Below are positions 4,542 to 29,968 of a stretch of DNA of 32,844 nt, piece after piece (position 1 is the stretch's first letter; every line of letters starts with the position of its first letter). The stretch comes from Bacteroidales bacterium UBA4866 (GTDB lineage Bacteria > Bacteroidota > Bacteroidia > Bacteroidales > P3). Below the pieces are notes generated by a model. The model worked only from the letters and a program-made list of their open reading frames with translations, was not told the origin of the DNA and did not search any database. The translations under genes and the position numbers were made by a program. The stretch lies in contig DHDW01000024.1 of assembly GCA_002399565.1 (NCBI GenBank), forward strand, positions 15,071 to 47,914, in the 5' to 3' direction.

Positions 4542-4937
4542 CATGCTCCCAAAAAGAATATTTGAGGGGATTATTGTTTTCTCGTTTTTCTAAGTTCTAT
4601 ATGTTTTGATGCAATTTTTGCATAAAACTTATTGCACCATTTTAAAACACTGATTATAATATACATATATAAATAAAACGCTCTTTGAAAACTGCAAAAA
4701 CAAATCTACAAAATTTACACGCCGTGTTTCGATATTTTACACGCCGTGTTTCGATACGTTTGACGCCGTGTTTTGATGCTTCAGACGCCGTGTTTTGATG
4801 CGTTTGACGGCGTGTAAATTTTACCTGTTCACTTTATGAAATTTAATGACTGATTATTAGTGAGATATAATTAAATAAAAAAGGGATTAAAAACCCTTTA
4901 ATTAATATTTTTTTTGTTTAACTTAATACCAATATTT
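4542..4937 (+). other. Long untranslated leader/intergenic region before the HU-HIG gene
   Basis: No coding frame is supported here. Apart from the 22-bp repeat array (4710-4822), it contains an AT-rich stretch, a short dyad (gatgcaatttttgcat near 4609-4624), and a small hairpin-like pair of AAGGG/CCCTTT runs near 4880-4900. If the promoter at 4509-4541 is used, all of this is transcribed as the 5' leader of the nucleoid-protein gene. Confidence 0.4.
4710..4822. repeat. 22-bp-period tandem array (4 full units plus an inverted end unit)
   Basis: The 15-bp core acgccgtgttt(c/t)gat begins at 4719, 4741, 4763 and 4785, exactly 22 bp apart. A fifth, altered unit acggcgtgt begins at 4807. The 7 bp between cores vary: attttac, acgtttg, gcttcag, gcgtttg. 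The outer edges form a perfect 16-bp inverted repeat, 4710-4725 against 4807-4822, so the whole array can close into one stem. It is GC-rich compared with its surroundings. Not a CRISPR array: the units are far too short. Confidence 0.9.
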
Positions 4938-5372
4938 ATGGCATTAGAAATTGTAGGGGTCGAACGTAAAGTTACCGTTGGACCTGAGCCAGGGATGAAA
5001 TTCATGGCTAAATTAAAAAAAGGCAGAAAGGTTCCTATGACCCAGATTTACAAAGATGTTACTGATTTGTCTTCTCTTTCAAGAGGGGATATTAAAAACA
5101 CTGTCGACAATCTGTGGTTAGTTATAGGTAAGTACTTGGCTGACGGAAGAGATGTTGATTTAGGTGAGTTTGGCGAATTTAAAATTAGTATTAGCGCAAA
5201 GGCAGTTGATACTCTTGAAGAGGTTACAGCTGAAACCATCAGAAGACCAAAGGTTATATTCCGTATGGGCAAGGAATGGCGAAACTTGTTGGAGGATACA
5301 CCAAAAGTTTTAGGCTCTTTGGACATGAAAGGCTACAAGTCAAGAAAGTCAACAGAGCAGGAAAATCCTTAA
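4938..5372 (+). CDS. HU family DNA-binding protein (HU-HIG type)
   Basis: Small basic nucleoid-associated protein of the Bacteroidota-specific HU-HIG group: an HU/IHF fold with an extended N-terminus, binding DNA in the cytoplasm. An upstream in-frame ATG at 4914 would add MFNLIPIF. I chose 4938 because MALEIVGVERKVTVG is a typical start. The predicted protein has 144 residues. It shows the helical dimerisation part (TQIYKDVTDLSSLSRGDIKNTVDNLW), then the GEFGEFKISIS beta-arm segment, a PKVIFRMGKEWR strand, and a charged tail of about 35 residues. It stands alone downstream of a long leader that carries the 22-bp repeat array. Autoregulation through that array is an attractive idea, but nothing in the sequence proves it. 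The gene converges on ettA. Confidence 0.85.
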   Translation: MALEIVGVERKVTVGPEPGMKFMAKLKKGRKVPMTQIYKDVTDLSSLSRGDIKNTVDNLWLVIGKYLADGRDVDLGEFGEFKISISAKAVDTLEEVTAETIRRPKVIFRMGKEWRNLLEDTPKVLGSLDMKGYKSRKSTEQENP

Positions 5373-5380
5373 AAATAAAG

Positions 5381-5452
5381 AGCTTAATGACTTTAAAGAC
5401 TTTAATGTCCTTAAGGTTGTTAAGCTCCTTAAACTTTTTAAGCTTCTTAAAT
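5381..5452. repeat. 9-bp-period NNNTTAANN array (8 units)
   Basis: Eight consecutive 9-mers carry TTAA at the same phase, with TTAA starting at 5384, 5393, 5402, 5411, 5420, 5429, 5438 and 5447. The flanking bases differ from unit to unit. The array lies between the convergent HU-HIG and ettA stop codons. A short dyad (gagcttaa 5380-5387, ttaagctc 5420-5427) falls inside it, so it might also serve as a weak bidirectional terminator. Confidence 0.8.
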
Positions 5453-5458
5453 TAATCT

Positions 5459-7141
5459 TTAATCAGCAATCAGTTTTTTGTATCTTGGTCTTTTTGGTGT
5501 TATATCTCCTAAACGTTTCTTGCGGTTTTCTTCATATTCTGAATAAGAACCTTCAAAGAAATACACTTCAGAATCTCCTTCAAAGGCAAGAATATGGGTT
5601 GCAATTCTGTCTAAAAACCATCTATCGTGGGAAATAACTACTGCACAGCCAGCAAAGTTTTCCAAACCTTCTTCAAGTGCTCGAAGGGTATTGATGTCAA
5701 TATCATTCGTTGGCTCATCCAGTAGCAAAACATTAGCTTCTGATTTAAGTGTTAGGGCTAAATGCAAACGATTTCTTTCTCCTCCAGAAAGTATTCCTGT
5801 CTTCTTGCTTTGGTCAGTGCCTGAAAAATTGAAACGAGAAACATAAGCTCTTGAGTTGATTAGTCTTCCTCCCATTTGAATTTGTTCATTGCCTTCTGAA
5901 ACAACTTCCCAAACTGTTTTCTCTGGGTCAATATCGCTATGTTGCTGATCAACATAACCTACCTTAACTGTTTCTCCAACATCAAATGTTCCATTTTCAG
6001 GTTGTTGAAAGCCCATAATCATTCTAAAGAGTGTTGTTTTACCTGCTCCATTAGGTCCTATAACTCCAACAATTCCTGCTGGTGGAAGAGAAAATGTTAG
6101 GTTTTCAAAAAGAAGTCTTTCTCCAAAAGCTTTGCTAACTCCATTGGCTTCAATAACCTTTGTTCCCAAACGAGGACCGTTAGGAATAAAGATTTCCAAA
6201 CGTTCTTCTTTTTCTTTAGTATCTTGTGAAAGCATTTGTTCATAAGCACTCAAACGAGCCTTTCCTTTGGCTTGACGAGCCTTAGGACTCATTCTAACCC
6301 ATTCCAACTCTCTTTCAAGAGTTTTCTTTCTCTTGCTTTCGGTTTTTTGTTCCATCTCCATTCGCTTGGTTTTTTGGTCAAGCCATGAAGAATAGTTGCC
6401 TTCCCATGGTATTCCTTCTCCTCTGTCAAGTTCCAAAATCCATCCAGCAACATTATCTAAGAAATATCTATCATGGGTTACTGCAATAACTGTTCCTTTG
6501 TATTGATGAAGGTGTTGTTCTAACCAGTCAATTGATTCGGCATCAAGGTGGTTGGTTGGCTCATCTAAAAGTAGAATGTCTGGTTCTTGAAGCAATAGTC
6601 TGCAAAGTGCTACTCTTCTTCTTTCTCCTCCTGAAAGAGTGCCTACAATAGCATCTTCTTCTGGACAACGAAGTGCATCCATTGCTCTTTCAAGTTTATT
6701 ATCAAGATTCCAAGCATCGTGTTGTTCCATAAGCTCCATAACCTCTCCTTGACGTTCCATTAGTTTGTTCATCTCATCATCGCTCATTGGCTCAGAGAAT
6801 TTCAAATTAATCTCATCATATTCTTTAATTATGTCAGCTACTTCCTTAACGCCTTCCATAACTACTTCCTTAACGGTTTTTCCATCATCCAACTTTGGCT
6901 CTTGCTCCAAATATCCAACACTATATCCTGGTGAGAAATGCACCTCTCCTTGATGCGAATGGTCTAAACCTGCAATAATCTTCAAAAGGGTTGATTTCCC
7001 TGAACCGTTTAAACCAATTATCCCTATCTTTGCTCCATAGTAAAATGATAGATAAATATCCTTCAAAACCTGCTTGTTTGGTGGATATGTTTTACCCACT
7101 CCTACCATTGAGAATATTATCTTCTTGTCGTCTAATGCCAT
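5459..7141 (-). CDS. ettA: Energy-dependent translational throttle protein EttA (ABC-F ATPase)
   Basis: A 560-residue ABC-F protein, close to the usual EttA length of about 555. EttA binds the ribosomal E site and gates the first peptide bond according to ATP/ADP level. There are two nucleotide-binding domains and no membrane segments. NBD1: Walker A GLNGSGKST (43-51), signature LSGGE (169-173), Walker B ILLLDEP (189-195). The charged arm insertion lies at about 95-140, which is EttA-like. The P-site linker region follows at about 255-310, rich in Lys, Arg and Glu. NBD2: Walker A GPNGAGKTT (362-370), signature LSGGE (451-455), Walker B VLLLDEP (471-477). The start is 9 bp after the recJ stop, so the two genes are probably one transcript driven from upstream of recJ. 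Confidence 0.95.
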   Translation of the reverse strand: MALDDKKIIFSMVGVGKTYPPNKQVLKDIYLSFYYGAKIGIIGLNGSGKSTLLKIIAGLDHSHQGEVHFSPGYSVGYLEQEPKLDDGKTVKEVVMEGVKEVADIIKEYDEINLKFSEPMSDDEMNKLMERQGEVMELMEQHDAWNLDNKLERAMDALRCPEEDAIVGTLSGGERRRVALCRLLLQEPDILLLDEPTNHLDAESIDWLEQHLHQYKGTVIAVTHDRYFLDNVAGWILELDRGEGIPWEGNYSSWLDQKTKRMEMEQKTESKRKKTLERELEWVRMSPKARQAKGKARLSAYEQMLSQDTKEKEERLEIFIPNGPRLGTKVIEANGVSKAFGERLLFENLTFSLPPAGIVGVIGPNGAGKTTLFRMIMGFQQPENGTFDVGETVKVGYVDQQHSDIDPEKTVWEVVSEGNEQIQMGGRLINSRAYVSRFNFSGTDQSKKTGILSGGERNRLHLALTLKSEANVLLLDEPTNDIDINTLRALEEGLENFAGCAVVISHDRWFLDRIATHILAFEGDSEVYFFEGSYSEYEENRKKRLGDITPKRPRYKKLIAD

Positions 7142-7150
7142 AAAAATTTA

Positions 7151-8935
7151 TTATTTATTTAGTTTAATATCTTTAATGTTTAATTGTATTGATGTTCTGC
7201 CATTCCATTGATTTTCGTCAATTTGATAGGCTATATCGAAGTTTTCACCATTGCGAATTTTGTTGTAATAGTCGCTAAGTCCAAATCCTATGCAAGAAAA
7301 AGGTAGATGGCGAATGTCTAAATGAATTGCAGAGAAATTTAAGTGTTTTTGTCCAACAGGACGCACTTGACCAGTGTCAACAACTCTTTTTGAAAGAAAT
7401 ACTGGAGTGTTGTTTTCTTGTCCAAAGGGTGCAAATTGTTTAATTATCCTATATAGCTTTGGAGTAATATCACTTAAGTTAATTTCTTGGTCTATTTCAA
7501 TTTCTGGAACAGATTGTTCGTCTGTCATATCCTGCTCCACCTTTTCTTTAAACAAACGTATAAACTCACTAAGATTTTCTTCCTTAATGGATAGTCCTGC
7601 AGCAAATTTATGTCCTCCAAAATGTTCCAAAAGAAAAGAACAGGATTCAATCGCATTATATATATCAAAATCCTTAACTGAACGAGCCGAACCAGTTATT
7701 AGTCCATTACTCTTTGTGAAAACAATAGTTGGCTTATAGTATTTTTCAATAAGGCGTGAAGCAACAATTCCAATAACTCCCTTGCTCCAATCTTTTTGAA
7801 AAACAACATTAGCCTTGCTACTCAAAAGGTCATGAGAGTTTTCAAGCATAGAAATGGCTTGCTGAGTTGCTTCAATATCCAACTTCCTGCGTTCATCGTT
7901 TGTTTCATTAATCTTTTCAGCAATTGTTTGAGCGTCTTCTAACTTATCACATATTAGAAGCTCAACAGAATTTCTTCCCGATTCAATTCTTCCAGCAGCA
8001 TTAATTCTTGGACCTATCAAAAATACCAAATCAATAATGCTTAATTCACGATTAAAATAGAGCTTTCTATCCTCTTCATTACAAACCCTTACAACATTAC
8101 TATACTTAAGAATGGCTTCAATTCCTGGACGAGGCTGCCTATTGATTATTTTCAACCCATAAAAAGCCAAAATTCTGTTCTCTCCTGTTATGGGAACTAC
8201 ATCAGCAGCAATGGAAATGGCAACAAGGTCTAAATAAGGAAGAAGTTTTTCGAAAGGTTGATTTCTCTTAATATTAATTGCCTGAATAAGCTTAAAGCCA
8301 ACACCACAACCAGAAAGCTCCTTGTAGGGATAATTGGAATCTTTAACCTTAGGATTTAATATTGCACAAGCCTTAGGCAATTCGTCTCCAGGGAGATGAT
8401 GGTCACAAATAATAAAATCAATTTCTTTCTCACTTGCATAAGTAATTTGCTCAATAGCCTTAATTCCACAATCTAATGCAATAACCAACTTATAACCATT
8501 ATCATAAGCCCAATCAATAGACTGATAGGAAATTCCATAACCCTCAATATATCTATCGGGAATGTAGAAATCCACCTCCGAATAGAACTTTTTCAAATAG
8601 GAATAGACTAATGCAACAGCAGAAGTACCATCTACATCATAATCACCATAAATTAAAATCTTTTCTCCAGCCTTAATAGCAACCATAATCCTAACCAAAG
8701 CATCCTCCATGTCCTTAAGAAGGAAAGGGTCGTGCAAATCCTTTAAATTAGGTCTAAAAAACTTTTTAGCCTCCTCATAACTCTTAATCCCCCTTTGCAC
8801 AAGAAGATTTGCAATAATATCATAAGCCCTATAATCTTCCTCTCTCAAACATGTAGAATCTACTCTCAAATCACGTGCAAGCTGCTCAACCAAAGTCCTA
8901 TCCCCATTTTTCTTTACCACCCAACGTTTATCCAT
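7151..8935 (-). CDS. recJ: Single-stranded-DNA-specific exonuclease RecJ
   Basis: 5'-3' single-strand exonuclease of the DHH phosphoesterase family, acting in recombinational and base-excision repair. The frame is open upstream to 9031, but that would add 32 Leu/Phe-rich residues lying across the promoter. I chose the Met at 8935 (MDKRWVVKKNGD), giving 594 residues, normal for RecJ. Catalytic motifs: DYDVDG (98-103), the ALDCG strand (153-157), DHH (178-180), the SGCGVGFKL block, and GPRINAAGR in the DHH core. The later GHKFAAGLSI block belongs to the DHHA1 domain, followed by a C-terminal OB-like domain. It is the first gene of a two-gene minus-strand unit with ettA and is divergent from pdxJ. 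Confidence 0.95.
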   Translation of the reverse strand: MDKRWVVKKNGDRTLVEQLARDLRVDSTCLREEDYRAYDIIANLLVQRGIKSYEEAKKFFRPNLKDLHDPFLLKDMEDALVRIMVAIKAGEKILIYGDYDVDGTSAVALVYSYLKKFYSEVDFYIPDRYIEGYGISYQSIDWAYDNGYKLVIALDCGIKAIEQITYASEKEIDFIICDHHLPGDELPKACAILNPKVKDSNYPYKELSGCGVGFKLIQAINIKRNQPFEKLLPYLDLVAISIAADVVPITGENRILAFYGLKIINRQPRPGIEAILKYSNVVRVCNEEDRKLYFNRELSIIDLVFLIGPRINAAGRIESGRNSVELLICDKLEDAQTIAEKINETNDERRKLDIEATQQAISMLENSHDLLSSKANVVFQKDWSKGVIGIVASRLIEKYYKPTIVFTKSNGLITGSARSVKDFDIYNAIESCSFLLEHFGGHKFAAGLSIKEENLSEFIRLFKEKVEQDMTDEQSVPEIEIDQEINLSDITPKLYRIIKQFAPFGQENNTPVFLSKRVVDTGQVRPVGQKHLNFSAIHLDIRHLPFSCIGFGLSDYYNKIRNGENFDIAYQIDENQWNGRTSIQLNIKDIKLNK

Positions 8936-8966
8936 AATATCCAAAATTTTCAAAACAAATAATCTA

Positions 8967-8994
8967 CAAAGATATAAAAATAAATTTACTTCAA
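8967..8994 (-). promoter_or_regulatory. Promoter for recJ-ettA
   Basis: On the minus strand, TATCTTTG (8974 down to 8967) matches the Bacteroidota -7 box TAnnTTTG exactly, with a TTG (8994-8992) 17 bp upstream. Transcription would start near 8960, about 25 nt before the chosen recJ start. This supports starting RecJ at 8935 instead of 9031. Confidence 0.55.
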
Positions 8995-9058
8995 GAAAAA
9001 GAGAGGTTGAGAGATGTAAAGTGAAAAACATATTGGTTATTGAAAAAAAACATCAAGT

Positions 9059-9156
9059 ATAATTGAAAATATGTCCCTTATATTTTTATTTATCTCCCTT
9101 ATATTTCCAAATATGTCCTTTATATTTTTGTATATGTCCCTTATATTTTTCATTAT
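9059..9156. repeat. 21-bp-period tandem array, copy A (4 units)
   Basis: The core atgtcccttatattt (one or two changes in some units) begins at 9071, 9092, 9113 and 9134, exactly 21 bp apart. The 6 bp between cores vary: ttattt, ccaaat, ttgtat, ttcatt. The two ends (9059-9072 and 9143-9156) pair as a 12-of-14 inverted repeat. A second copy of the same 98-bp element lies at 29871-29968. It sits in the recJ/pdxJ divergent gap (8936-9246), which otherwise holds only promoter elements. Confidence 0.9.
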
Positions 9157-9214
9157 GATTGATGTTTTTGGAGGTTAAATTTAAAGTAAAATGCAAATGT
9201 TTTAATTTCGTGCT

Positions 9215-9222
9215 TATCTTTG
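9215..9222 (+). promoter_or_regulatory. -7 promoter box for pdxJ
   Basis: TATCTTTG is an exact TAnnTTTG match, 24 bp before the pdxJ start codon. No convincing TTTG partner lies 17-23 bp upstream. The position supports the pdxJ start at 9247, because the earlier ATG at 9220 overlaps this box. Confidence 0.45.
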
Positions 9223-9246
9223 CAAAAAGTTTTTAAAAGGTTTATT

Positions 9247-9957
9247 ATGACAAAGCTTAGTGTTAATATTAATAAGGTGGCAACTATAAGAAATGCAAGA
9301 GGTGGCAATAATCCTGATTTAATTAAGGTTGCTATGGATTGTGAACGTTTTGGGGCTGAAGGCATAACTGTGCATCCTCGTCCTGATGAAAGACATATTC
9401 GTTATTCGGATGTTAGGAACTTGAAGCCTATTTTAACTACAGAGTTTAATATTGAGGGTAATCCTAATGATGATTTTATTCGTTTGGTTGAGGAAATTAA
9501 GCCAGCTCAAGTTACTCTTGTTCCTGATGCTCACAATGTTTTAACCTCTAATGCTGGTTGGAATACTATTAAAAATAAAGAGTTTCTTTCTTCTGTTGTT
9601 GAAAGACTTAAACCTTATAGTAGGGTTTCTATTTTTGTTGACCCTGAGGAGGAAATGGTTGCTGGGGCAAAGGCTTGTGGAGCTGACCGTGTGGAACTAT
9701 ACACAGAAAGTTATGCAAAGAATTATTTTATTGACAGAGATAAGGCCATTGAGCCATTTATTAAGGCTGCCAATGAAGCTAAGCATCAAAACTTAGGTTT
9801 AAATGCTGGACATGATTTGGATTTGGAGAACTTGGAGTTTTTCAAAAATAACATTCCTAATCTATTAGAGGTTTCAATTGGCCATGCTTTAATTTGCGAT
9901 GCTTTGTATTACGGCTTGCAAAACACAATTCAAATGTATAAACGTTGTTTAAAATAA
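9247..9957 (+). CDS. pdxJ: Pyridoxine 5'-phosphate synthase PdxJ
   Basis: Condenses 1-deoxy-D-xylulose 5-phosphate with 3-amino-2-oxopropyl phosphate to give pyridoxine 5'-phosphate, the last ring-forming step of the DXP-dependent vitamin B6 pathway. It is a cytoplasmic TIM barrel. The ATG at 9220 adds [10 protein letters not shown] chose 9247 ([20 protein letters not shown]), which gives 236 residues, the usual PdxJ size. Family marks are all present: [13 protein letters not shown] (active-site His and phosphate-binding Arg), TEFNIEG with the catalytic Glu, the VTLVPD strand, [10 protein letters not shown], and [13 protein letters not shown] with the C-terminal active-site His. It begins the pdxJ-U32 pair; the next gene follows after 25 bp. 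Confidence 0.96.
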
Positions 9958-9982
9958 ATAAATCACTTTTAATTAGATTATT

Positions 9983-11863
9983 ATGAAGCAGATTGAACTT
10001 CTTTCTCCTGCCAAAAACCTTGAAATTGGCATTGCAGCCATTGATTGTGGTGCTGATGCAGTTTATATTGGGGCGAATAATTTTGGGGCAAGAGTTCAAG
10101 CAGGAAATAGCTTGGAGGATATTGCCTCTTTGGTTTCTTATGCTCATTTATTTAATGCAAAGGTTTATGTTACCATAAATACTATTCTTTTTGACAATGA
10201 ATTAAAAGCTGCTGAGGATTTAATTCAAAAGCTCTACAAAATTGAAGTTGACGCAATCATTATTCAAGACTATGGCATTTTAGAAATGAATCTTCCTCCA
10301 ATACATATTCATTCAAGCACTCAAATGCATAATATTTCTAAGGAAAGGATTAAGTTCCTTAGTGATGTTGGTTTCAAGAGAGTTGTTTTGGCAAGAGAGC
10401 TTTCCATTGAGCAGATTAGAGAAATTCACAGCTTTGTTCCTGATATTGAATTAGAATTTTTTGTTCATGGAGCTTTATGTAATGGACTTAGTGGTCAGTG
10501 TTATTTGAGCTATGAACTAACCAAACGTTCTGGCAACCGTGGGGAGTGTTCTCAAGCATGCAGAAGCAAGTACGACTTAGTGAACTCTCAAGGCAAGGTT
10601 TTGATTAAAGACAAGCATCTCCTTTCTACAAAAGATTTTAACGCTTCATTACATATTCCAGAAATGATTGAGGCTGGGGTTAGAAGTTTTAAGATTGAGG
10701 GAAGATTGAAGGATATGGACTATGTTAAAAATGTTACAGCCCACTATTCAAGGGAGATAGATAAATTTATTTCTGCTGAAAACAATAAAGAAAAATATTG
10801 CAGAAGCTCATTAGGTAAAACTGAAATTGGATTTGAGCCTGATGTTGAAAGGAGTTTTAATCGTGGATTTACAAGTTTTAATCTTCAAGGCAAACAAGAT
10901 ATTATTGGTAATTTGGATTCTGCAAAGTCAATTGGGAAATATTTAGGTAAAATAAGCGATTTGAATAACTCAGGAAGAGGAAAATTCTATTTTCAAATTG
11001 ACACCAAAGAAAGAATTTCAAATGGAGATGGGCTATGTTATATTAACATGGAAGGAAATATTGAAGGTTTTTTGGTTAATGGAGTTGAAGAAAACCCTTC
11101 TCAAGGATTGGTTATGATATATCCCAACAAGAAACCAGACATTAGACTCCTAACAAAGATTTATCGCAACTTAGACACACAGTTTACTAAACAAGTTCTA
11201 ACGGACAAAACCAAAAGAAGGATAGCAATAGATATTATTCTTAAAGAAACTTCTCAAGGATTTTCTCTTCAAGCCATTGATGAGCAAAGTTTAAGCGTTC
11301 AAGAAGATATTATCGTTGAAAAGCAAATTGCACTAAAAGTTCAAGACTATGAGAAAAATCTTTTGAAACAGATTGACAAGCTTGGGGATAGTATTTTCTA
11401 TTTAAGAAGCTTTGATAATAAATGTTCTGATAATTTTTTCTTTGCCTCTTCCCTACTTAATCATCACAGAAGAAATCTTATTGAAAAACTTTATGAGTTA
11501 AGACAAAAGGCATATAAACCAATAAGAAAAGAGTTTGAAAAGAATGATGTTCCCTATCCTGAAAAAAAACTTGACTTTAAAGCAAATGTTGTTAATGAAA
11601 AAGCAAAGCAATTCTTTTTAAATCATAAGATTGAAGAAATTGAAAATGGACTTGAAAAGCAAGGAGAAAGAAATTCAAAATCTAAGGATATAGTACTTAT
11701 GAGAACTAAGAATTGTATTCGTTACACCTTAGGGCAATGTTTAATTAGGGATAAACAAACTCAAGACTTTAATCAAGAACTATTCTTAAAAGACAATAAA
11801 AGAACTTACAAACTACATTTTGACTGCAAGAATTGTTTTATGGATTTAATATCTTTGGAATAG
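9983..11863 (+). CDS. U32-family protein, RlhA-like (peptidase U32 plus DUF3656)
   Basis: A 626-residue member of the U32 'collagenase-like' family. The long form with a C-terminal extension resembles E. coli RlhA (YdcP), which hydroxylates C2501 of 23S rRNA; the shorter TrhP branch acts on tRNA. The N-terminal barrel starts with ELLSPAKNLEIGIAAIDCGADAVYIG. The U32 signature region (about 158-194) contains EFFVHGALCNGLSGQC and later GECSQACRSKYDL. C166, C173, C189 and C193 are the likely iron-sulfur ligands. The DUF3656-like region follows from about 330, and a last Cys-containing segment is at 598-622. It is named a peptidase in databases, but an RNA-modifying role is more likely from family knowledge. 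Probably co-transcribed with pdxJ; no functional link is known to me. Confidence 0.85.
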   Translation: MKQIELLSPAKNLEIGIAAIDCGADAVYIGANNFGARVQAGNSLEDIASLVSYAHLFNAKVYVTINTILFDNELKAAEDLIQKLYKIEVDAIIIQDYGILEMNLPPIHIHSSTQMHNISKERIKFLSDVGFKRVVLARELSIEQIREIHSFVPDIELEFFVHGALCNGLSGQCYLSYELTKRSGNRGECSQACRSKYDLVNSQGKVLIKDKHLLSTKDFNASLHIPEMIEAGVRSFKIEGRLKDMDYVKNVTAHYSREIDKFISAENNKEKYCRSSLGKTEIGFEPDVERSFNRGFTSFNLQGKQDIIGNLDSAKSIGKYLGKISDLNNSGRGKFYFQIDTKERISNGDGLCYINMEGNIEGFLVNGVEENPSQGLVMIYPNKKPDIRLLTKIYRNLDTQFTKQVLTDKTKRRIAIDIILKETSQGFSLQAIDEQSLSVQEDIIVEKQIALKVQDYEKNLLKQIDKLGDSIFYLRSFDNKCSDNFFFASSLLNHHRRNLIEKLYELRQKAYKPIRKEFEKNDVPYPEKKLDFKANVVNEKAKQFFLNHKIEEIENGLEKQGERNSKSKDIVLMRTKNCIRYTLGQCLIRDKQTQDFNQELFLKDNKRTYKLHFDCKNCFMDLISLE

Positions 11864-11906
11864 GATTTTTCTAAATATTCAGAAAAAATTTATCCTTAAG
11901 ACTTTA

Positions 11907-11938
11907 TTTGCCCATATAAAATATAATTCCTAATTTTG
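11907..11938 (+). promoter_or_regulatory. Promoter for sdhCAB
   Basis: TTTG at 11907-11910 and TAATTTTG at 11931-11938, 20 bp apart. Both boxes match the Bacteroidota consensus. Transcription would start near 11945, leaving a leader of about 45 nt before sdhC. Confidence 0.65.
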
Positions 11939-11989
11939 CAATCCTATTAATTTATAAGCAAATTTTTTATTTACTAAAAGCATAAATCT

Positions 11990-12856
11990 ATGAAACTAAT
12001 ACAATTTGCCTCCATCACCAAAAAAATAGCACTTGCCTCTTTCGGCTTGTTTTTGCTATTATTCTTGCCTGTGCACTTAGGTATCAACCTATGTCTTTTA
12101 AGAGAAGATGGTGGAGAATGGTACAGAAATGCAAGTCATTTCATGGGTACAAACTACATTGTGAAGGTATTCGAAATAGTACTTATGGCTTGTGTGCTTT
12201 TGCACATAGTTGTAGCTATTTTGCTCACAATTGAAAACTTTATGGCTCGCCCTGTTCGCTACAAAGTTAGAACTAAAACAAAAACTCCTTTTATGTCTCG
12301 CTATATGATTTGGACAGGAGGAATTGTGGCTTGTTTTTTAGTTTTGCACTTTATCAATTTCTATTTCGTTAAATTAGACATTGTTGAAGGCAAATACTCT
12401 GCAAACATAGAACAAGTTGATAAGGCATTTCAAGAAAAGGCTCTTAAACTCCAAAAAGGAGAGCTAAATGAAAAAGACCAAGCTGCACTTATGGCACAAT
12501 ATCAAGCAATAAGTCAAATTTCTCCAGATAAAATGGATAAGGGTCAAAAGAATATGGTTAATTTAACTAAAGAAGAAGTAGAAATATATTGTGGTAAAGA
12601 CTTTAAACATAAAGAACCCGATTTCTACACAATGAGTCAAGAGCTGTTTGCTAAAAAATCTTACTCATTTATCTATATTTTAGTTTTTCTTGTGTTAGGA
12701 TTCCATCTATATCATGCCATTAATTCTTTGGCTCAAACCTTTGGTTTAAGTCATAAGAAATACTCTCCAGTTATTGAATGGGTTTCTGTAATTTATGCTG
12801 TTGTGGTTCCTATTGGATTTGCAATCATTCCTCTTTGGATTATGTTTGTGAAATAA
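11990..12856 (+). CDS. sdhC: Succinate dehydrogenase/fumarate reductase cytochrome b subunit, with an enlarged loop
   Basis: Membrane anchor of the succinate:quinone oxidoreductase; holds haem b and the quinone site. Five hydrophobic segments are seen at about 12-33, 56-82, 104-127, 226-248 and 262-286, as in the single-anchor (FrdC-like, dihaem) type. Candidate haem-ligand histidines within or beside helices are H29, H72, H120, H239 and H242. The protein is 288 residues, longer than the 220-230 I expect for Bacteroidota SdhC. The extra length lies between helices 3 and 4 (about 130-220), a Lys/Glu/Gln-rich hydrophilic loop. With the N-terminus inside, this loop would face the periplasm. It is first in the sdhCAB operon; sdhA follows after 48 bp. 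Confidence 0.93.
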   Translation: MKLIQFASITKKIALASFGLFLLLFLPVHLGINLCLLREDGGEWYRNASHFMGTNYIVKVFEIVLMACVLLHIVVAILLTIENFMARPVRYKVRTKTKTPFMSRYMIWTGGIVACFLVLHFINFYFVKLDIVEGKYSANIEQVDKAFQEKALKLQKGELNEKDQAALMAQYQAISQISPDKMDKGQKNMVNLTKEEVEIYCGKDFKHKEPDFYTMSQELFAKKSYSFIYILVFLVLGFHLYHAINSLAQTFGLSHKKYSPVIEWVSVIYAVVVPIGFAIIPLWIMFVK

Positions 12857-12904
12857 CATAAGAAGATATAAAGTTGTTTATTAATAATATAAAGATATAA
12901 AGAT

Positions 12905-20486: not shown

Positions 20487-20624
20487 ATAGTATTTCATTT
20501 TATCTTTTCTCAATTTCTCTCCCATAATTTATATATAATTTCACCCTAATTACTATTTAAAAATACTCTTATCCAATATAAGTTTATCAAACCCTTATTA
20601 TAATTGAATAAGATAAGGATTAAG

Positions 20625-20715
20625 TTTTGCATCCTGCCAGGATGTAGTATGCAAGGTGGCAGGATGTAGGTTACATGGTGGCAGGATGTAATGTGCAAGG
20701 TGGCAGGATGCAAAA
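20625..20715. repeat. 22-bp-period tandem array with inverted first unit
   Basis: The core ggtggcaggatgta recurs with caggatg at 20638, 20660, 20682 and 20704, exactly 22 bp apart. The 8 bp between cores vary: gtatgcaa, ggttacat, atgtgcaa. The first unit is preceded by its own inverse, so the array's ends (ttttgcatcctgcc 20625-20638 and ggcaggatgcaaaa 20702-20715) are a perfect 14-bp inverted repeat. It lies in the 20487-20874 gap, which holds nothing else I can support except short AT dyads (such as 20713-20734) and the tRNA terminator. Confidence 0.9.
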
Positions 20716-20824
20716 TTTATTCTTGATATAAATTTGACAGAATAAGGTTTGAATTTTCTTTTGCCTTTATTTTGGAAGTCTTTTTTGGAGTTTGTTGGGG
20801 AGGATTTAGGATATGATTGGGAAT

Positions 20825-20990: not shown

Positions 20991-21033
20991 TTAATATGGC
21001 TTTAATTGACTTTTTATTGGTTTTTGCTCTCTT

Positions 21034-23859: not shown

Positions 23860-23955
23860 TTTTTGTGGTTGAAATAATTTGCAATAATACTACTTTTTTG
23901 CGAGCTAATTATTGATTCCTTGCCTTAAATATTCCTTCAATAACTTGTTGATTAA

Positions 23956-23985
23956 TTTGTAATCTAATTTTTTTTATTATCTTTG
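23956..23985 (+). promoter_or_regulatory. Promoter for the coiled-coil lipoprotein gene
   Basis: TTTG at 23956-23959 and TATCTTTG at 23978-23985, 18 bp apart, an exact match to the Bacteroidota consensus. It predicts a leader of about 50 nt before the start at 24042. Confidence 0.65.
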
Positions 23986-24041
23986 TAGCATTAAAATGCT
24001 AATATAATATTAATTCTTATAAACATTAAATCCTTTTTTGT

Positions 24042-24908
24042 ATGAAGAAAAGTTTGTTAATCATCGGTTTATTCGTTTCTGCAATGATGTTTAGTTGCCA
24101 AAACGACAAAGAACAACTTGCAAGGGAAAAACAACTACATGACTCCTTTGCTCAAGTAATGTCTGTTAAAGATGCAGATTTGGAAAATCTATTTATGGAA
24201 CTTAACCAAATTGACTCCTCTCTAACGGAAGTTACAAACAAATATACCAATGTATCAAAAGTTGCCAATACTTCTGGCGAAATGACTCAAGACACTAAAG
24301 TAAGTATTAGAGAAAAGATTGAAACAATAAATAGTCTTTTGGCTGAAAACAAGAGAAAAATTGCAAATGTTAACTCCAAGATGCAAAAGAACAACAAGGA
24401 GAACGAGCAATTGAAAGTTTTTGTAAGCAATCTTGAATCAAGAATTAAAGAACAGGAAGAACAAATTCAAGCTCTGAACTCTGAATTGGCAAAGAAAAAC
24501 ATTCAAATTGAAAACTTAAATAAAAACGTTGCTGATTTGAATGAAAAAGCAAAACAAAGAGATGCTCAAATAATGAAGATTGAAGATGAAAAGAACACAG
24601 CTTACTTCGTTATTGGAACAAAGAAAGAGCTAATGAGCAAGAATATTATTGACCGTAAGGGAGGTTTTATTGGAATTGGCAAATCATCTGTTTTATCTTC
24701 AAATGCTGACTATACTAACTTCACTAAGATAGACATTCGCAACACTCAAGAAATTGCACTAACAGGAAAGAGAGTTGAAATAATTACTTCTCACCCTGCT
24801 TCTTCTTATTCATTGGAAGGCGATGCAAAAGCACCAACATCAATCCGTATTACTAACCCAGAACAATTCTGGAAAGGAAATCGTTGCCTAATTATTAAAG
24901 TTGACTAA
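24042..24908 (+). CDS. Coiled-coil lipoprotein of unknown function (resembles Bacteroidota 'Cbp1-like' proteins)
   Basis: A 288-residue predicted lipoprotein. The signal peptide ends in the lipobox MFSC, so C19 would be lipidated; the Gln-Asn-Asp after it suits outer-membrane sorting. Residues of about 40-180 are almost entirely Glu/Lys/Gln/Asn-rich helix with heptad spacing of Leu and Ile (for example LESRIKEQEEQIQALNSEL), a long coiled coil. A compact C-terminal domain (about 185-288) begins FVIGTKKELMSKNII and includes DRKGGFIGIGKSS and FTKIDIRNTQEI. Proteins with this last domain are common in Bacteroidota, and some are named collagen-binding adhesins. I would not carry that function over. 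It is transcribed alone from a clear promoter, with a strong terminator downstream. Confidence 0.8.
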   Translation: MKKSLLIIGLFVSAMMFSCQNDKEQLAREKQLHDSFAQVMSVKDADLENLFMELNQIDSSLTEVTNKYTNVSKVANTSGEMTQDTKVSIREKIETINSLLAENKRKIANVNSKMQKNNKENEQLKVFVSNLESRIKEQEEQIQALNSELAKKNIQIENLNKNVADLNEKAKQRDAQIMKIEDEKNTAYFVIGTKKELMSKNIIDRKGGFIGIGKSSVLSSNADYTNFTKIDIRNTQEIALTGKRVEIITSHPASSYSLEGDAKAPTSIRITNPEQFWKGNRCLIIKVD

Positions 24909-24930
24909 GATACTTTAAATTACATAAAGA

Positions 24931-24968
24931 AAAACGAGGGTTAATTAATTTTAATCCTCGTTTTTTTT
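24931..24968 (+). terminator. Intrinsic terminator after the lipoprotein gene
   Basis: Stem 24931-24944 with 24951-24964 (core cgagg against cctcg, extended by A-T pairs and one G-U), a 6-nt loop, and T residues to 24968. The A-tract on the left side means it could also act on minus-strand transcripts of the converging gene, although that gene ends about 190 bp away. Confidence 0.9.
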
Positions 24969-25156
24969 ATTTGTTGTTTTAATCAAAGTACAATTTGAAA
25001 CACTATCTATTTTTTCTGAAATGTGATATTAAATTATATATTAATATTGCAATAACTAAGATTACATAGATTATCAGTATCTTTGAATAAGAAACGACAT
25101 ATTTTGATAAAGCAAATAAAAAAACTTTTTTATTTTCCTTAAAGCTCTCTTTAATT

Positions 25157-26146
25157 TTATTCAATCATAATTTGCTGATTTTGCATATCTTTTGTTAGGT
25201 AATCCCATGATAGGGCGTTTGTTGTAGGGAGGTAGATTCTTAGTTTTTTGTTATTCTTATTATAAATTTTACTTCCTCTTATTGACGGGTTTAGAAAACG
25301 AAGATGATTATACTTCACTCCTACTTGCTTAGCAAAAGCGTATAAGTCGTTGATTGTTGTATCAACTATTATCTCTTTTGTTGGTATTGGTTGATAGGTG
25401 TCTTTCTGTCTAAAATAATAGCCATATTGTTGAGGGTTTTCCATAATAAGCTTATAGGCAATTATTCTGTAAACATATCTTGCTGTTTCGGTGAAGGTAT
25501 ATAAATCCCAGTAATTGTCGCATCCTTGCTCATTCAATCTTGTCTTTACTGACCTCTCTCCTGAATTATATGCTGCACAAGCTAAAGCCCAATCGTTAAA
25601 AACTTCTTTTTTTTGTTTTAGATATTTACATGCTGCAATTGTGGATTTCTCCAAATCATATCTTTCATCCCATCCATCTAAAGTGTCTAAACCATATTCT
25701 TTTGCTGTTGGGAGTAAGAATTGCCAAAAGCCCTCTGCCTTAGCTGGTGAAACAACATTTGTTAATCCACTTTCAGCAACAGCCAAATATTTTATATCCT
25801 CTGGAACGGACTGACTTTTAAGCAAAGGTTCAATAAGGGGGAAAAATCGTTGTGCTCTTTTGAGAATAAGGAACGTTGTTGAGTGATTGTACATAATGGA
25901 AGTAAGCTCTCTGTCTAAAGCCTCTCTAACAAAAACATTATCCAATGGTATTTCCTTCCCACAAAACTCTACCTTTTGAGGAATGGGTGGAGCAAAATTT
26001 TGATAATGCTGCTTAACAATATCCATATACTCACTATCACTATTTGTAGGTACAGTTCTTGCCATTACAAATATTCCCATAAGAATAGCAATGGAGGATA
26101 ATACTATAGCCACAATACTCAATTCCTTGATCCAACTTTTTTTCAT
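25157..26146 (-). CDS. Membrane-anchored lytic transglycosylase (SLT domain, MltD-like)
   Basis: Cleaves the MurNAc-GlcNAc bond of peptidoglycan to leave a 1,6-anhydro end. 329 residues. There is an N-terminal membrane anchor (about 10-29) with no lipobox, unlike E. coli MltD. The SLT domain spans about 85-235: the catalytic Glu is E125 in YLAVAESGL, followed by SPAKAEGFWQF, LDGWDERYD, the ACAAYNSG motif (190-196), and the ETARYVYRIIAYKL helix. After it comes a region with LysM-like character (TTINDLYAFAKQVGV...LRFLNPSI...LRIYLP) that would hold peptidoglycan. Its -7 box TATCTTTG lies at 26188-26181 on the minus strand. It is divergent from the TPR-like gene and convergent with the lipoprotein gene. 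Confidence 0.9.
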   Translation of the reverse strand: MKKSWIKELSIVAIVLSSIAILMGIFVMARTVPTNSDSEYMDIVKQHYQNFAPPIPQKVEFCGKEIPLDNVFVREALDRELTSIMYNHSTTFLILKRAQRFFPLIEPLLKSQSVPEDIKYLAVAESGLTNVVSPAKAEGFWQFLLPTAKEYGLDTLDGWDERYDLEKSTIAACKYLKQKKEVFNDWALACAAYNSGERSVKTRLNEQGCDNYWDLYTFTETARYVYRIIAYKLIMENPQQYGYYFRQKDTYQPIPTKEIIVDTTINDLYAFAKQVGVKYNHLRFLNPSIRGSKIYNKNNKKLRIYLPTTNALSWDYLTKDMQNQQIMIE

Positions 26147-26180
26147 TACAATTAACCTTTTGTTTTTTTCGTTACTATTG

Positions 26181-26188
26181 CAAAGATA
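26181..26188 (-). promoter_or_regulatory. -7 promoter box for the lytic transglycosylase
   Basis: TATCTTTG on the minus strand is an exact TAnnTTTG match, 35 bp before the start codon. No clear TTTG partner is found at the expected distance. Confidence 0.4.
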
Positions 26189-26220
26189 CTTAATCTTATC
26201 TTCATTAGCGAAATTATTAT

Positions 26221-26228
26221 TATTTTTG
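26221..26228 (+). promoter_or_regulatory. -7 promoter box for the TPR-like gene and xseAB
   Basis: TATTTTTG fits TAnnTTTG and lies 36 bp before the start at 26264. The upstream box is not recognisable, and T-rich DNA makes chance matches likely. Confidence 0.3.
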
Positions 26229-26263
26229 TACTTTATTTTTAATCCATAACGTAAATTATTGAA

Positions 26264-28468
26264 ATGCTAAAACGATTCACTATAACCCTATCCTTAATTC
26301 TAATATCTCTTATTTCCTATTGTCAAACTCTTTCCGACCAACAAAGAAAAGATATAATATCCGATTTACAAAAGCAAATAACCATTGTTTCTGCTTTCTC
26401 CTCTGAAAAGCTTGATATGATTCCTGTTTATAATTCTCAACTACTAAATGCCAATAAAACTTTGGATAAGTATGAGACATATAAATCTGATAACTTGATT
26501 TATGCTAAATGGTTTGAGTTAAAGACTTTGGTTAAGCAAAACAAAGAAATGGTTGATTTCCTTGAGCCAAGAGTTGGCGACTGGTTTTACAGGAAAGCAG
26601 TTGGTTTTGTTGCAAACAATGAGAAAGCGAAAGCTGTTGAATTCTTGAATAAAGCTCTTGTTTACGATTCCAAGAATGTTATGGTGAACTATGAATTGGC
26701 AAAGATAAGCTTAGATAGTGGTAAAATTGTTGGAGCAACCAATCGTTTGACTAATATACTTTCGCAAATGCAGCCCGATGAGGAGGAGAAACTCCTTTGT
26801 CAAAATCTAATTGCTTTTGCTTATGATAAAAACCTTCTGAAGTCATTATCCCTAATCAATCAAGGAAAGTATGCTTATGCTGTTGATATTCTAACGGAGT
26901 TAGATTCCTATTGTCAAGCAGATATTTATGGCATTTGCAATAAGGCTGTAATTAAGAAGAATTTGGATTTTTGTAAGACAGGCATATATAACGAGCATAT
27001 AACCGTAAGCAAGAAAGCAATGGAGATTGGAAGGAGTGATGTGGCTGGAGATTTTGTTCAAAACACCTACGATTACTTCCAAAGAAACCGTCAATCCATT
27101 ACCGACACCACAAGCTTTGAGGGATTGGTTCGTGGAGTGGTTGATTCCTACATTGGACAAATTAAAAACCTCTATAGTGCAAAGAATAATGAGGCAAAGA
27201 TTGATTTAATTAGAAAGACTAAAGAGCTTGTTGCATTGGTTGGAGGAGAATATGAGGCTGGAGTTCTTAAAACACTCTCTTCAATGCAAGGAACAACAAC
27301 TCCTGTTGATATGAAACTTGACTCCATTGAAAATGCTGCTCCTGTGGAAGGCTACACTCATCAATATGCTCAATATGTTAAGGATAGCATAAGCAATGCA
27401 CAAGAAAAGGTTAAGGAGATAGAAAAACAATTTATTCCCTCCTCCGAAAATAAACTCCCAGAAAAATCATTAGCTGTTGAACAAACTAAAACCAAGAGCT
27501 TAAGAAAAGAAATTGATGATAAGTTTTATGAGTCTCGCACTTTTATGACCGTAAGCAATTATGATAAAGCCTTAGAGGTTTTGGAGAAAGCTAATCGTTT
27601 AGCTAAGATTGATGCAGAAAAGCAAGAGGTTGAAAAGATGTACACCTCAGCCATTAGGGAAATAACTGCAAGGAGAATGTCTGCTGCTGAATATTCAATC
27701 TTTCAAGGCGATGTTGCAAAGGCAGATAGCTTGGTGGGCATTACTAACGATTTGATTACAACCTATAAAATGGAAAATGACCCAACTATTATTAATATAA
27801 TGAATAGCTATTTGAGGGTTATTGACCAAAAGGTTTGCCAAAAGAAACAGGATGAAATTGATGTGTTTGTATATAATATTTTGGATTGTGTTAGAAGAAA
27901 TGATTTCTATAGGGCTGATGATCTAATTACAACAGCAATGCAAGTGAAAGGCTCCTCAGAGTGTAGATTAGACAAACAAAAGATACGTCAACTGAAACGA
28001 CAAATTGAAAAGCCTTTGGAATATGTTAATATGAAAGAAGGTGTAATGAAAAATTTGGAGGATAAAGACACCTTGCTTTTCATTAAAACATACGCAGAAT
28101 TGGAAGAGTTTTGGAACGATAACAAGCTTATTGAAATGAGCGTTGAGCATTTGCCATTAAGAAAGATATTATACAACACCAATAATAGCGACTTGGTTAT
28201 TAAGTCAATTGAGGAAATGGTTAAGTATCGTTTATACTTTGGTTCTTTGGAAGCTTTGGGAGCATTGAAAGATATGGGCTTTAAGAGAAAACAAACGAAG
28301 GACGCACAAAAGAAGATTGGGATGATGATGTCTTTGGATGTTGTTAATCGTCCTGACAAAATTAGAGAAAGCAATATTATTGACGATAAGTTTAAGAATG
28401 ATAAATGGTTTAAGGATTTCTATAAGAGCTATAATAAATATTTGATTAGTTGGCGTAAAAACAATTAA
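26264..28468 (+). CDS. Secreted/periplasmic TPR-like protein of unknown function
   Basis: I do not recognise a named family. 734 residues with a cleavable-type signal peptide (basic MLKR, hydrophobic core, likely cut near SYCQ). The Tyr before the Cys argues against a lipobox. The rest is mostly alpha-helical. TPR-like helix pairs are visible at about 105-165 (FYRKAVGFVANNEKAKAVEF, then LNKALVYDSKNVMVNYELAKI), at about 195-225 (NQGKYAYAVDILTEL), and at about 425-490 (NYDKALEVLEKANRLAKI, then AEYSIFQGDVAKADSLV). There are no enzyme motifs. A scaffold role at the cell envelope is an inference from the fold only. It lies 2 bp before xseA, so the three genes are probably one transcript, although the link between an envelope protein and exonuclease VII is unclear. 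Confidence 0.75.
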   Translation: MLKRFTITLSLILISLISYCQTLSDQQRKDIISDLQKQITIVSAFSSEKLDMIPVYNSQLLNANKTLDKYETYKSDNLIYAKWFELKTLVKQNKEMVDFLEPRVGDWFYRKAVGFVANNEKAKAVEFLNKALVYDSKNVMVNYELAKISLDSGKIVGATNRLTNILSQMQPDEEEKLLCQNLIAFAYDKNLLKSLSLINQGKYAYAVDILTELDSYCQADIYGICNKAVIKKNLDFCKTGIYNEHITVSKKAMEIGRSDVAGDFVQNTYDYFQRNRQSITDTTSFEGLVRGVVDSYIGQIKNLYSAKNNEAKIDLIRKTKELVALVGGEYEAGVLKTLSSMQGTTTPVDMKLDSIENAAPVEGYTHQYAQYVKDSISNAQEKVKEIEKQFIPSSENKLPEKSLAVEQTKTKSLRKEIDDKFYESRTFMTVSNYDKALEVLEKANRLAKIDAEKQEVEKMYTSAIREITARRMSAAEYSIFQGDVAKADSLVGITNDLITTYKMENDPTIINIMNSYLRVIDQKVCQKKQDEIDVFVYNILDCVRRNDFYRADDLITTAMQVKGSSECRLDKQKIRQLKRQIEKPLEYVNMKEGVMKNLEDKDTLLFIKTYAELEEFWNDNKLIEMSVEHLPLRKILYNTNNSDLVIKSIEEMVKYRLYFGSLEALGALKDMGFKRKQTKDAQKKIGMMMSLDVVNRPDKIRESNIIDDKFKNDKWFKDFYKSYNKYLISWRKNN

Positions 28469-28470
28469 AT

Positions 28471-29595
28471 ATGGCAAAAGAAGAAAATGGCATTAAATAC
28501 TTCACTCTTTTAGAAGCCTTAAGAAGCATTCAAAAAACCCTGCTCAATCGCTATACATCCTCTTTTTGGGTAAAAGCCGAATTGATGAAACTCAATCATT
28601 ATGCACATTCAGGACATGCCTATCCTGATTTGGTTGAAAAGCAAGACAATAAAATAGTTGCACAGATAAGAGCATTGATTTGGAAAGACGATTTTGATAG
28701 AATAAACTCCAAATTCCTATCCACCACCAAAGAACCAATAAAGGATGGAATAACAGTACTAATCTATTGCAGAGTTCAATTTGATGCCCTCTATGGACTA
28801 TCCCTAAGAATAATTGATATTGATCCCCTTTTCACTCTTGGAGAATTGGAGAAAGAGAGGTTAGACACCATTAGAAAAATTAAAGAAGAAGGAATTTGGG
28901 ATAAAAACAAAAGACTTGCCCTGCCCCTACTTCCACAACGATTAGCAATCATATCCGTTGAAACAAGCAAAGGCTACTCCGACTTTATGAACATAATCCA
29001 CCAAGACAAACAACCCTACAAACTCTTCACCATGCTCTTCCCCTCACTATTGCAAGGAGATAATGCCGTTGAATCTTTGCTCATTGCCTTAGATGCCATT
29101 GAAACAGTTAAAGACCATTTTGATGCAGTGCTAATAATTAGAGGAGGAGGAGGCGATATAGGCTTAGCATGCTATAATAATTATGAATTAGTAAAAAGAA
29201 TTGCCACCTATCCACTACCCATACTAACGGGAATAGGACATTCAACCAATGAAACAGTAAGTGAAATGGTATCAAACAAAACAGCCATCACCCCAACCGA
29301 ACTTGCCGATTTAATAATCAAACGCTTTGTTTCTTTTGACCAACAACTAAAAGACATAAAACAAAACCTCTTCAATATAGCCTCAAGACGAATAGAAAGA
29401 GAAACACAAACCCTAACCCACTACCAACAAATACTACAACTACTTGACCCCAAAAACCTATTAAAAAGAGGATACACCATATCATACCTGCAAGACAGGA
29501 TAATAACCTCAGCCTCCGAACTCCAAAAAGGCGACCAATTAGTAACACTATTCTCCGATGGAAAGGTAATATCAACAGTAAACGATAAAGAATAA
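28471..29595 (+). CDS. xseA: Exodeoxyribonuclease VII large subunit
   Basis: Catalytic subunit of the single-strand exonuclease VII, active in repair together with XseB. The N-terminal OB-fold (about 1-100) binds ssDNA: FWVKAELMKLN, GHAYPDLVEK and the VLIYCRVQF strand. The catalytic domain holds LAIISVETSKGYSDFMNII, LIIRGGGGDIGLACYNN, ILTGIGHSTNETVSEMV and AITPTELADLI, all standard XseA blocks. The C-terminal LLKRGYTIS block is also present. At 374 residues it is shorter than E. coli XseA (456). The missing part is in the coiled-coil arm between the catalytic core and the tail, where XseB subunits bind. Short forms of this kind are plausible for the phylum. It is followed by xseB after 9 bp. 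Confidence 0.95.
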   Translation: MAKEENGIKYFTLLEALRSIQKTLLNRYTSSFWVKAELMKLNHYAHSGHAYPDLVEKQDNKIVAQIRALIWKDDFDRINSKFLSTTKEPIKDGITVLIYCRVQFDALYGLSLRIIDIDPLFTLGELEKERLDTIRKIKEEGIWDKNKRLALPLLPQRLAIISVETSKGYSDFMNIIHQDKQPYKLFTMLFPSLLQGDNAVESLLIALDAIETVKDHFDAVLIIRGGGGDIGLACYNNYELVKRIATYPLPILTGIGHSTNETVSEMVSNKTAITPTELADLIIKRFVSFDQQLKDIKQNLFNIASRRIERETQTLTHYQQILQLLDPKNLLKRGYTISYLQDRIITSASELQKGDQLVTLFSDGKVISTVNDKE

Positions 29596-29604
29596 GATAG
29601 AAAA

Positions 29605-29817
29605 ATGGAAACAAAAAACTACACAGAGAACTTTGAAGAGCTAACCAAGATATTAAAAGAGTTGGAAAGAGGCGATATAACCATAGACAATATGACCCTT
29701 AAGATTCAACAAGCCTTAGTTCTATTGGATGAATGCAAAGAAAGCCTAAGCAAAGTAAACGAAGACGTAAATAAAATACGTGAGGAAATAAATTCAGCTA
29801 ACGAGAATAACATTTAA
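29605..29817 (+). CDS. xseB: Exodeoxyribonuclease VII small subunit
   Basis: A 70-residue helical hairpin that docks on the coiled-coil arm of XseA. It shows the typical opening NFEELTKILKELERGDITIDNM, then ALVLLDECKESLSKV, matching the family pattern (xxLExIVxxLExGxLxLExSLxxFExGxxLxxxCxxxL). The acidic, Asn-rich tail is unremarkable. It is the last gene of the unit and is followed by a 439-bp gap full of repeats. The hairpin tgggc-cat-gccca at 29831-29843 just after the stop has no T-run, so it is not called as a terminator. Confidence 0.94.
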   Translation: METKNYTENFEELTKILKELERGDITIDNMTLKIQQALVLLDECKESLSKVNEDVNKIREEINSANENNI

Positions 29818-29870
29818 TAGATATCTTTGTTGGGCCATGCCCAAATCTCATATTCAGAAAAAACCCAATC

Positions 29871-29968
29871 ATAATTGAAAATATGTCCCTTATATTTGGA
29901 AATATGTCCATCATATTTTCATTTATGTCCATCATATTTTTGTATATGTCCTTTATATTTTTCATTAT
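29871..29968. repeat. 21-bp-period tandem array, copy B (4 units plus a decayed fifth)
   Basis: Second copy of the 98-bp element at 9059-9156, in the same orientation. Cores begin at 29883, 29904, 29925 and 29946 (exact 21-bp steps), with a decayed unit at 29967. The 6-bp variable parts are ggaaat, tcattt, ttgtat and ttcatt. The last two equal those of copy A and the first two differ. Both ends (29871-29884, 29955-29968) are identical to copy A and form the same 12-of-14 inverted repeat. Confidence 0.9.

Follow-up and report, generated by a model that had tools for sequence, protein, structure and literature searches.

The stretch analysed here, called the window throughout, comprises 32,844 nucleotides (contig DHDW01000024.1, positions 15,071 to 47,914) of Bacteroidales bacterium UBA4866, whose draft genome, labelled G000, measures 2.11 Mb in 54 contigs and is 84% complete. 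The genes of the window look ordinary, six of the proteins having been run against NCBIfam; between them lie short tandem arrays. The nearest named relatives are the metagenome-assembled Bacteroidales UBA4893 (G010), UBA5515 (G002) and UBA5371, together with Bacteroidetes CTSoil_023 (G007), with PdxJ-like proteins 97%, 96%, 87% and 96% identical, respectively, to that of the window. A preliminary description had listed four intergenic arrays with a period of 21 or 22 bp, built on three core sequences, and all four were recovered by Tandem Repeats Finder (TRF) and by direct reading. The features are as follows.

4710 to 4822, unstranded: family A array, with five ACGSCGT cores in 22-bp steps at 4719, 4741, 4763, 4785 and 4807, the last inverted.
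4710 to 4725, plus strand: left inverted end of array A, the exact reverse complement of 4807-4822, perfect over 16 bp.
4807 to 4822, minus strand: right inverted end of array A, matching 4710-4725 inverted.
9045 to 9169, unstranded: family B element, with 21-bp units AAATATGTCCCTTATATTTTT and long, imperfect inverted ends (about 9045-9069 and 9147-9169).
20548 to 20735, unstranded: family C element, consisting of a left flank, a 22-bp array and a right flank.
20625 to 20715, unstranded: family C array, whose ends at 20625-20638 and 20702-20715 are perfect inverted copies over 14 bp.
29871 to 29982, unstranded: second family B array, with 21-bp units and a degraded right inverted end.

By TRF, array 1 spans 4715-4815 (period 22, 4.6 units), array 2 spans 9067-9157 (period 21, 4.3 units), array 3 spans 20638-20710 (period 22, 3.3 units) and array 4 spans 29879-29982 (period 21, 5.0 units). 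Arrays 2 and 4 form one family, which gives three families for the three core sequences. The inverted outer ends ascribed to all four arrays are perfect in arrays 1 and 3 and long and imperfect in array 2; those of array 4 are weak, because its right end is degraded. Each family is dispersed: once rows on both strands had been merged, the 5 match rows of family A in G000 resolved into 4 places, the 22 of family C into 20, and the 32 of family B into at least 23, a lower bound from 21 scored candidates out of 63. Among 41 genomes, family C matched five, family A four and family B nine, four of the latter by one or two weak matches. Single units can be inverted within array copies, as judged by eye. 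In searches made with family C alone, viral contigs contained no exact match to its pattern, and blastn matched none of the phage or plasmid records.

The 21-22 bp period is a property of the genome at large. Intergenic arrays were counted by TRF at periods of 10-100 and at least 2.3 copies, and a period of 20-23 was found for 20 of 25 tandem arrays in a 341-kb sample of G000 chosen by contig number, and for 49 of 56 in a 400-kb sample chosen partly around known matches. Independently of array calling, intergenic 8-mers recurred 65, 89 and 16 times per 10,000 positions at lags 21, 22 and 23, against 0-7 at all other lags between 6 and 41, and harmonics followed at lags 42-44 and 63-66; coding DNA (250 sampled open reading frames) gave only 0-2 per 10,000 at lags 15-47. 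The preliminary description would have had to be abandoned had 21-22 bp been no commoner than other periods, or had the four loci stood alone; with 20 of 25 arrays at period 20-23 and a peak at lags 21-22, neither is the case. Array counts from the drafts are lower bounds, because runs of N (L147:3048-3394, L053:13276-13884, L144:10721-11323) and some contig ends (G000:C18, G008:C29, G002:C30) sit within arrays.

The 20-23 bp pattern holds in those species of the genus that were sampled, is patchy across other genera of the family and is hardly seen in the further Bacteroidota sampled. In these comparisons, which use a small sample per genome, intergenic arrays of period 20-23 made up 8 of 8 in G002, G007 and G010, 16 of 18 in further species of the genus, 4 of 4 at the UBA5371 locus, 8 of 15 in other genera of the family, 1 of 2 in other families of the order and 0 of 1 in other named Bacteroidota (379 kb); a second sample of the order (106 kb) contained zero arrays. 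In the control set, drawn from the order and other Bacteroidota, lag 21 reached 10 per 10,000, a signal that looks like 7- and 8-bp repeats, because lags 7, 8, 14, 16, 24 and 32 equal it. With more sampling of other genera, the fraction was 5/5 in G013, 3/5 in G014, 2/3 in G011, 1/1 in each of G015, G019, G021 and G024, 0/3 in G012, 0/1 in G016 and 0/5 in G023, and the sampled DNA of G020 and G022 had no arrays. G023, of another genus in the same family, has a period of 11 in four of its five intergenic arrays (L134, L203, L204); these comprise about three sequences, and by eye their ends are inverted. G012, which belongs to that genus too, has one 11-bp array (L125). A minority of arrays has a 23-bp step (L057:8576-8722, L115:4976-5110, L188:5250), the unit length of the BrickBuilt element discussed below. 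Per kb of gap, arrays numbered 1.65 in convergent, 0.76 in co-directional and 0.75 in divergent gaps of G000, and 1.42, 0.76 and 1.14, respectively, in other species; the convergent enrichment is compatible both with tolerance of repeats at a distance from promoters and with a 3' role.

Under this one period, the unit sequences are diverse. The 64 arrays of G000 (duplicates removed) fell into 34 unit families at a similarity of 0.75 and 41 at 0.80, the 99th percentile for shuffled units being 0.67. The commonest core form, stem-GCC/GGC-stem, recurs with different stems (ATCATGCCATGAT, ATAATGGCATTAT, GAAATGCCATTTC, AAACAATGCCATTGTTT, TAAGGTGGCACCTTA), and further centres include ACG, CGC and CCG.

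Within units, conservation is concentrated at the core. In 44 palindromic arrays, the majority letter had a share of 0.91-0.95 up to 5 bp from the centre, falling to 0.61-0.64 at a distance of 9-10 bp; the corresponding shares in a random-phase control were 0.86-0.92 and 0.76, so the effect is partly a product of unit picking. Core spacing was also measured independently of TRF and with double-counted stretches removed: of the successive pairs of identical palindromic cores sharing a gap, 50 of 62 in G000 and 24 of 33 from further species of the genus were 21-22 bp apart, and 8 of the remaining 12 and 7 of the remaining 9 pairs, respectively, lay near multiples of the step. Linkers within arrays were identical at 0.36 of positions in G000 (60 pairs) and 0.42 in other species (18 pairs), against 0.26 expected from composition. 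That spacing is kept while linker letters diverge is what chiefly leads us to propose that helical phase is constrained. In arrays whose cores have a single-base centre, changes of that base were to the exact complement in 39 of 44 cases. The inverted ends of the preliminary description also gain statistical support, the first and last units being oppositely oriented in 29 of the 48 palindromic arrays that could be scored (seven further arrays were not scorable), against 18.4 expected when units were shuffled within arrays (p 0.001).

Comparison of orthologous and homologous sites reveals how the arrays change. Array A has an orthologous array in G007 (L046). The family B element at 9045-9169 occupies a divergent gap between genes that we take to be recJ and pdxJ; in this gap G010 has the same array, G007 and G002 a B-like array that is differently placed, and UBA5371 an array of another sequence. 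Homologues of the family C element occur at many places in G002, G007, G008 and G010, and at the window's own family C gap, the flanks are shared by G010, G007 and G002 but enclose arrays built of other units (GGTGSCACC / GGTACGACC), with three to six differing units in G002, in the two copies of G007 and in G010. The left flank and array of this gap occur twice in G007 (L171, G007:C48), at about positions 777 and 6289, some 5.5 kb apart, as if arrays served as recombination points. Loci L072 and L188 differ by a clean 21-bp unit, a clean 22-bp unit and one half-site, and a half-site change completes a palindrome (ACCTTAC / AGGATGC); in L159 and L182, the unit centres differ at one site. At L066, all 8 units, or bricks, of G000 have G-C as their inner core pair, but all 11 of G002, all 11 of G007 and all 9 of G010 have T-A; the dispersed homologues of this array are less pure, with G-C in 6/7, 5/8 and 6/8 bricks.

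Array pairs with similar flanks numbered 372, against 15-35 for shuffled flanks, and in 220 of the 372 the units were dissimilar (similarity <0.65); single-linkage clusters from this comparison are inflated by AT-rich sequence. Among orthologous gaps, some of which were entered more than once, 43 had no array on either side, nine had arrays on both, six had one only in the relative and one only in G000. Of these seven one-sided cases, three are N runs of the G000 assembly within the array and one is an array missed by TRF; two concern gap 24908-25156 (against G002 and against G007), a genuine difference, and the last is a weak A/T-rich array (L072:11463).

The surroundings of array 4 have features of their own. 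Just downstream lies a long inverted repeat (29990-30067), formed by GTAGGGGCATGCCTTGTGCATGCCC and an imperfect inverse, and a piece resembling it flanks another family B copy (L035). Beside the array, at 30257-32808, is a P4-type phage/plasmid primase gene, whose neighbour resembles a CRISPR-associated primase-polymerase model, though weakly and below the cut-off; this region is perhaps a mobile-element remnant.

The anatomy of the arrays and their period law are well supported. Period, autocorrelation, the 34-41 families and core spacing all bear out the suggestion of the preliminary description that one geometry over unrelated sequences points to a common process or reader. We propose, with a probability of roughly 0.4, that the arrays are a lineage-specific class of intergenic repeats akin to miniature inverted-repeat transposable elements (MITEs), constrained in helical phase and dyad symmetry and probably serving as a platform for a putative DNA-binding protein. 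The brick of about 21-22 bp consists of a linker and a core that is conserved and in many cases forms a short odd palindrome. The constraint would lie on dyad symmetry and a fixed helical phase together and not on a particular word, as suggested by the fixed period over dozens of unrelated sequences, the near-random linkers, the in-place core flips, the gain and loss of whole bricks and the nearly coherent, mostly symmetric rewriting. Dimers of the putative protein would most probably sit side by side on one helix face of the array, reading symmetry and shape above letters; candidates are an architectural or nucleoid protein, or the element's own mobilising protein, lost or unrecognised. Recombination between palindromic bricks would yield gain and loss of units as well as inversions. 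The proposal draws on the period law, the linker-independent core spacing, the peak of conservation at the palindrome, the exact-complement changes of single-base centres, coherent rewriting, the two-sided changes in 21 of 66 predicted pairs, whole-unit insertions and deletions, the flanks shared by arrays and the replacement of arrays between shared flanks; the 11-bp arrays of G023, with a step of one helical turn, lend further support. More tentatively, the arrays might reflect a letter-blind system by which helically phased dyads are written or maintained between genes, with the step (one or two turns) and the mirror symmetry conserved and the words rewritten freely but coherently; its agent could be either a shape-reading protein or self-templated copying between palindromic bricks.

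Several observations weigh against a symmetry-reading protein. Only 55 of 138 arrays passed a palindrome filter, and unit palindromes reached p ≤0.05 in 9 of 20 arrays of the contig-number sample and 7 of 49 of the first sample. Cores are spelled in so many ways that one protein with one fixed recognition word is contradicted. At centres of two or three bases, exact inversions accounted for 8 of 23 changes, against 15 of other kinds. In a list of 100 arrays, in which two G002 arrays appear twice owing to overlapping stretches, clustering of conserved columns was significant in just 21, and unevenness by variance in 4. The bricks of the copies designated K are imperfectly symmetric, with outer arms not always paired (e.g. 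AAAC with GTCT), and although RNAalifold predicted 66 pairs in seven K copies, 21 of them with two-sided changes, its covariation term of 0.11 amounts to no support. Lastly, the convergent-gap enrichment also fits plain tolerance of junk DNA.

Among the explanations considered, a phase- and symmetry-reading protein on MITE-like elements ranks first, neutral MITE minisatellites second and a mutational copier third. The second, possible though doubtful, holds that the arrays are neutral, BrickBuilt-like MITEs with internal minisatellites, whose ends are transposase sites, whose repeats slip and whose period derives from one ancestral element. The arrays are short non-coding repeats in many dispersed copies with shared flanks, they have terminal inverted repeats in three of the four window arrays and opposite end units in the 29 of 48 noted above, and their resemblance to BrickBuilt is strong. 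At one orthologous site (L163 against L249), the element is present in G000 and about 300 bp less is found in G010, with flanks too diverged to place the junction. Searches for the Y1, DDE_Tnp_1 and rve transposase families point both ways. DDE_Tnp_1 matched twice in G000, once in G010, six times in G004 and four times in G009, and rve three times in G003 and once each in G004 and G010. No DDE_Tnp_1 match was obtained in G002, G003, G006, G007, G008, G013 or G014, no rve match in G000, G002, G006, G007, G008, G013 or G014, and no Y1 match in G000, G002, G003, G007, G010, G013, G014 or G021; hence G002, G007, G013 and G014, which are 96-100% complete, carry arrays with no match to any of the three. 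Moreover, family B flanks show no clear target duplication by eye, and drift would hardly preserve spacing while linkers randomise. Any common ancestor would have to be very old, given that random array pairs have a unit similarity of 0.52 and shuffled units one of 0.50.

An explanation that we regard as unlikely is a purely mutational origin, in which hairpin-assisted slippage and template switching would make, invert and homogenise cores, replication or repair would set the 21-22 bp step, and the arrays would be functionless. The exact-complement core flips, the half-site change described above, the coherent rewriting inside one copy and the limitation of palindrome words mostly to few gaps speak for such an origin. 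However, sampled coding DNA has no excess of 21-bp recurrence, although in-frame 21-bp repeats could survive there, the homogenisation of cores without linkers demands very short conversion tracts, and restriction to one family is left unexplained.

Less probable still is that the arrays work as RNA, as long fold-back hairpins transcribed from the gaps. Individual arrays do fold well, with z ≤-4 in 12 of 16 folded strands and no equally stable shuffle in 14 of 16, and shuffling linker letters made them less stable, with a mean z of -1.79 and 31 of 57 values below -1.64 (two arrays being counted twice); the two-sided pair changes in K copies also favour this idea. Core order, on the other hand, left folding unchanged when shuffled (mean z -0.01), permuting intact linkers within an array caused no significant weakening (mean rank 0.441, p 0.13, 52 arrays), and mirror linkers were complementary at 0.415 against 0.388 (p 0.17; per-array test p 0.054). 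Since core order had no effect and intact-linker permutation no significant one, the predicted fold-back is largely a by-product of palindromic units; the closing of each array into one stem, as first described, is retained as a property of individual arrays, and on the mirror-linker and linker-permutation tests we reject the whole-array hairpin as the object selected in general. At the gathering threshold, Rfam matched only a tRNA in the window and none of the four arrays, and arrays also occur in divergent gaps. The resemblance to miniature clustered regularly interspaced short palindromic repeats (CRISPR) seen in the preliminary description, or to any other Cas1-written array, lies in a conserved core with a fixed-length variable linker and is scarcely credible as an explanation, since CRISPR by definition has near-identical repeats much longer than 15 bp and unique spacers of similar size, whereas the cores here measure only about 13-15 bp, have short linkers, differ by locus and flip, and Cas1 had no match in the array-bearing G002, G003, G004 and G008 (it matched in G006, G007, G009, G010 and further genomes, and G000 gave two weak pieces).

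As necessary agents, Y1, DDE_Tnp_1, rve and Cas1 are all ruled out by array-bearing genomes without matches, while some array-bearing genomes possess them. If geometry is conserved and sequence is not, sequence-based catalogues will split the class into dozens of unrelated "families" and lose the shared trait. The arrays also constitute a natural experiment, with many words under one spacing rule, in which selfish, architectural and mutational palindromes can be tested against one another.

In open-licence papers, we found no description of one geometry common to many unrelated arrays; the known systems compared here share parts of it. Iterons and plasmid partition sites have repeats of about 20-22 bp, two helical turns, and one protein occupies a few adjacent units; they belong to one origin or centromere and use one word, whereas the arrays here are dispersed over the chromosome in many words. 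Transposon ends of the MuA/TnsB type carry several protein sites of about 22 bp, in opposite orientation at the two ends; here, the genomes without an rve match listed above and the absence of visible cargo or element genes from the window copies set the arrays apart. Repetitive extragenic palindromes (REPs) are associated with RAYT transposases, and CGTC REPs have been reported from Bacteroidetes without a dedicated transposase (PMC3733652). REPs have short palindromes, subfamilies with alternative complementary stem residues, and mixed-orientation dimers and groups (PMC3733652), features shared with the arrays, which differ in having regular 21-22 bp steps and, by eye, no common GTAG or CGTC tag. 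The arrays fall outside the REP/RAYT class, with no match to the RAYT family PF01797 in G000, G002, G003, G007, G010, G013 or G014.

The nearest described element that we found is BrickBuilt of Porphyromonas gingivalis, a MITE/minisatellite with 19 dispersed copies and a 23-nt tandem unit without spacers (Klein et al. 2015, PMC4596501). Both BrickBuilt and the arrays are intergenic and dispersed in Bacteroidales, and both have conserved and variable unit parts, inverted-repeat ends, site-specific variation in repeat number (between strains for BrickBuilt) and predicted long stem-loops (PMC4596501). BrickBuilt has one unit sequence in 1-22.8 units, against dozens of sequences in about 3-8 units here; its terminal inverted repeats, compared with those of the IS5 family, are IS5-like, whereas several array-bearing genomes have no DDE_Tnp_1 match; and it is recognised by its 23-nt unit and IS5-like GAGACC.. 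ends (PMC4596501), whereas window units are 21-22 bp with other ends. We found no report of core flips or coherent rewriting for BrickBuilt, and the word "palindrome" is absent from the text of its paper (PMC4596501). P. gingivalis has other repeats of 22, 23 and 41 nt (PMC4596501), and BrickBuilt and the Porphyromonas 22/23-nt repeats may represent the part of the same class that has so far come to light.

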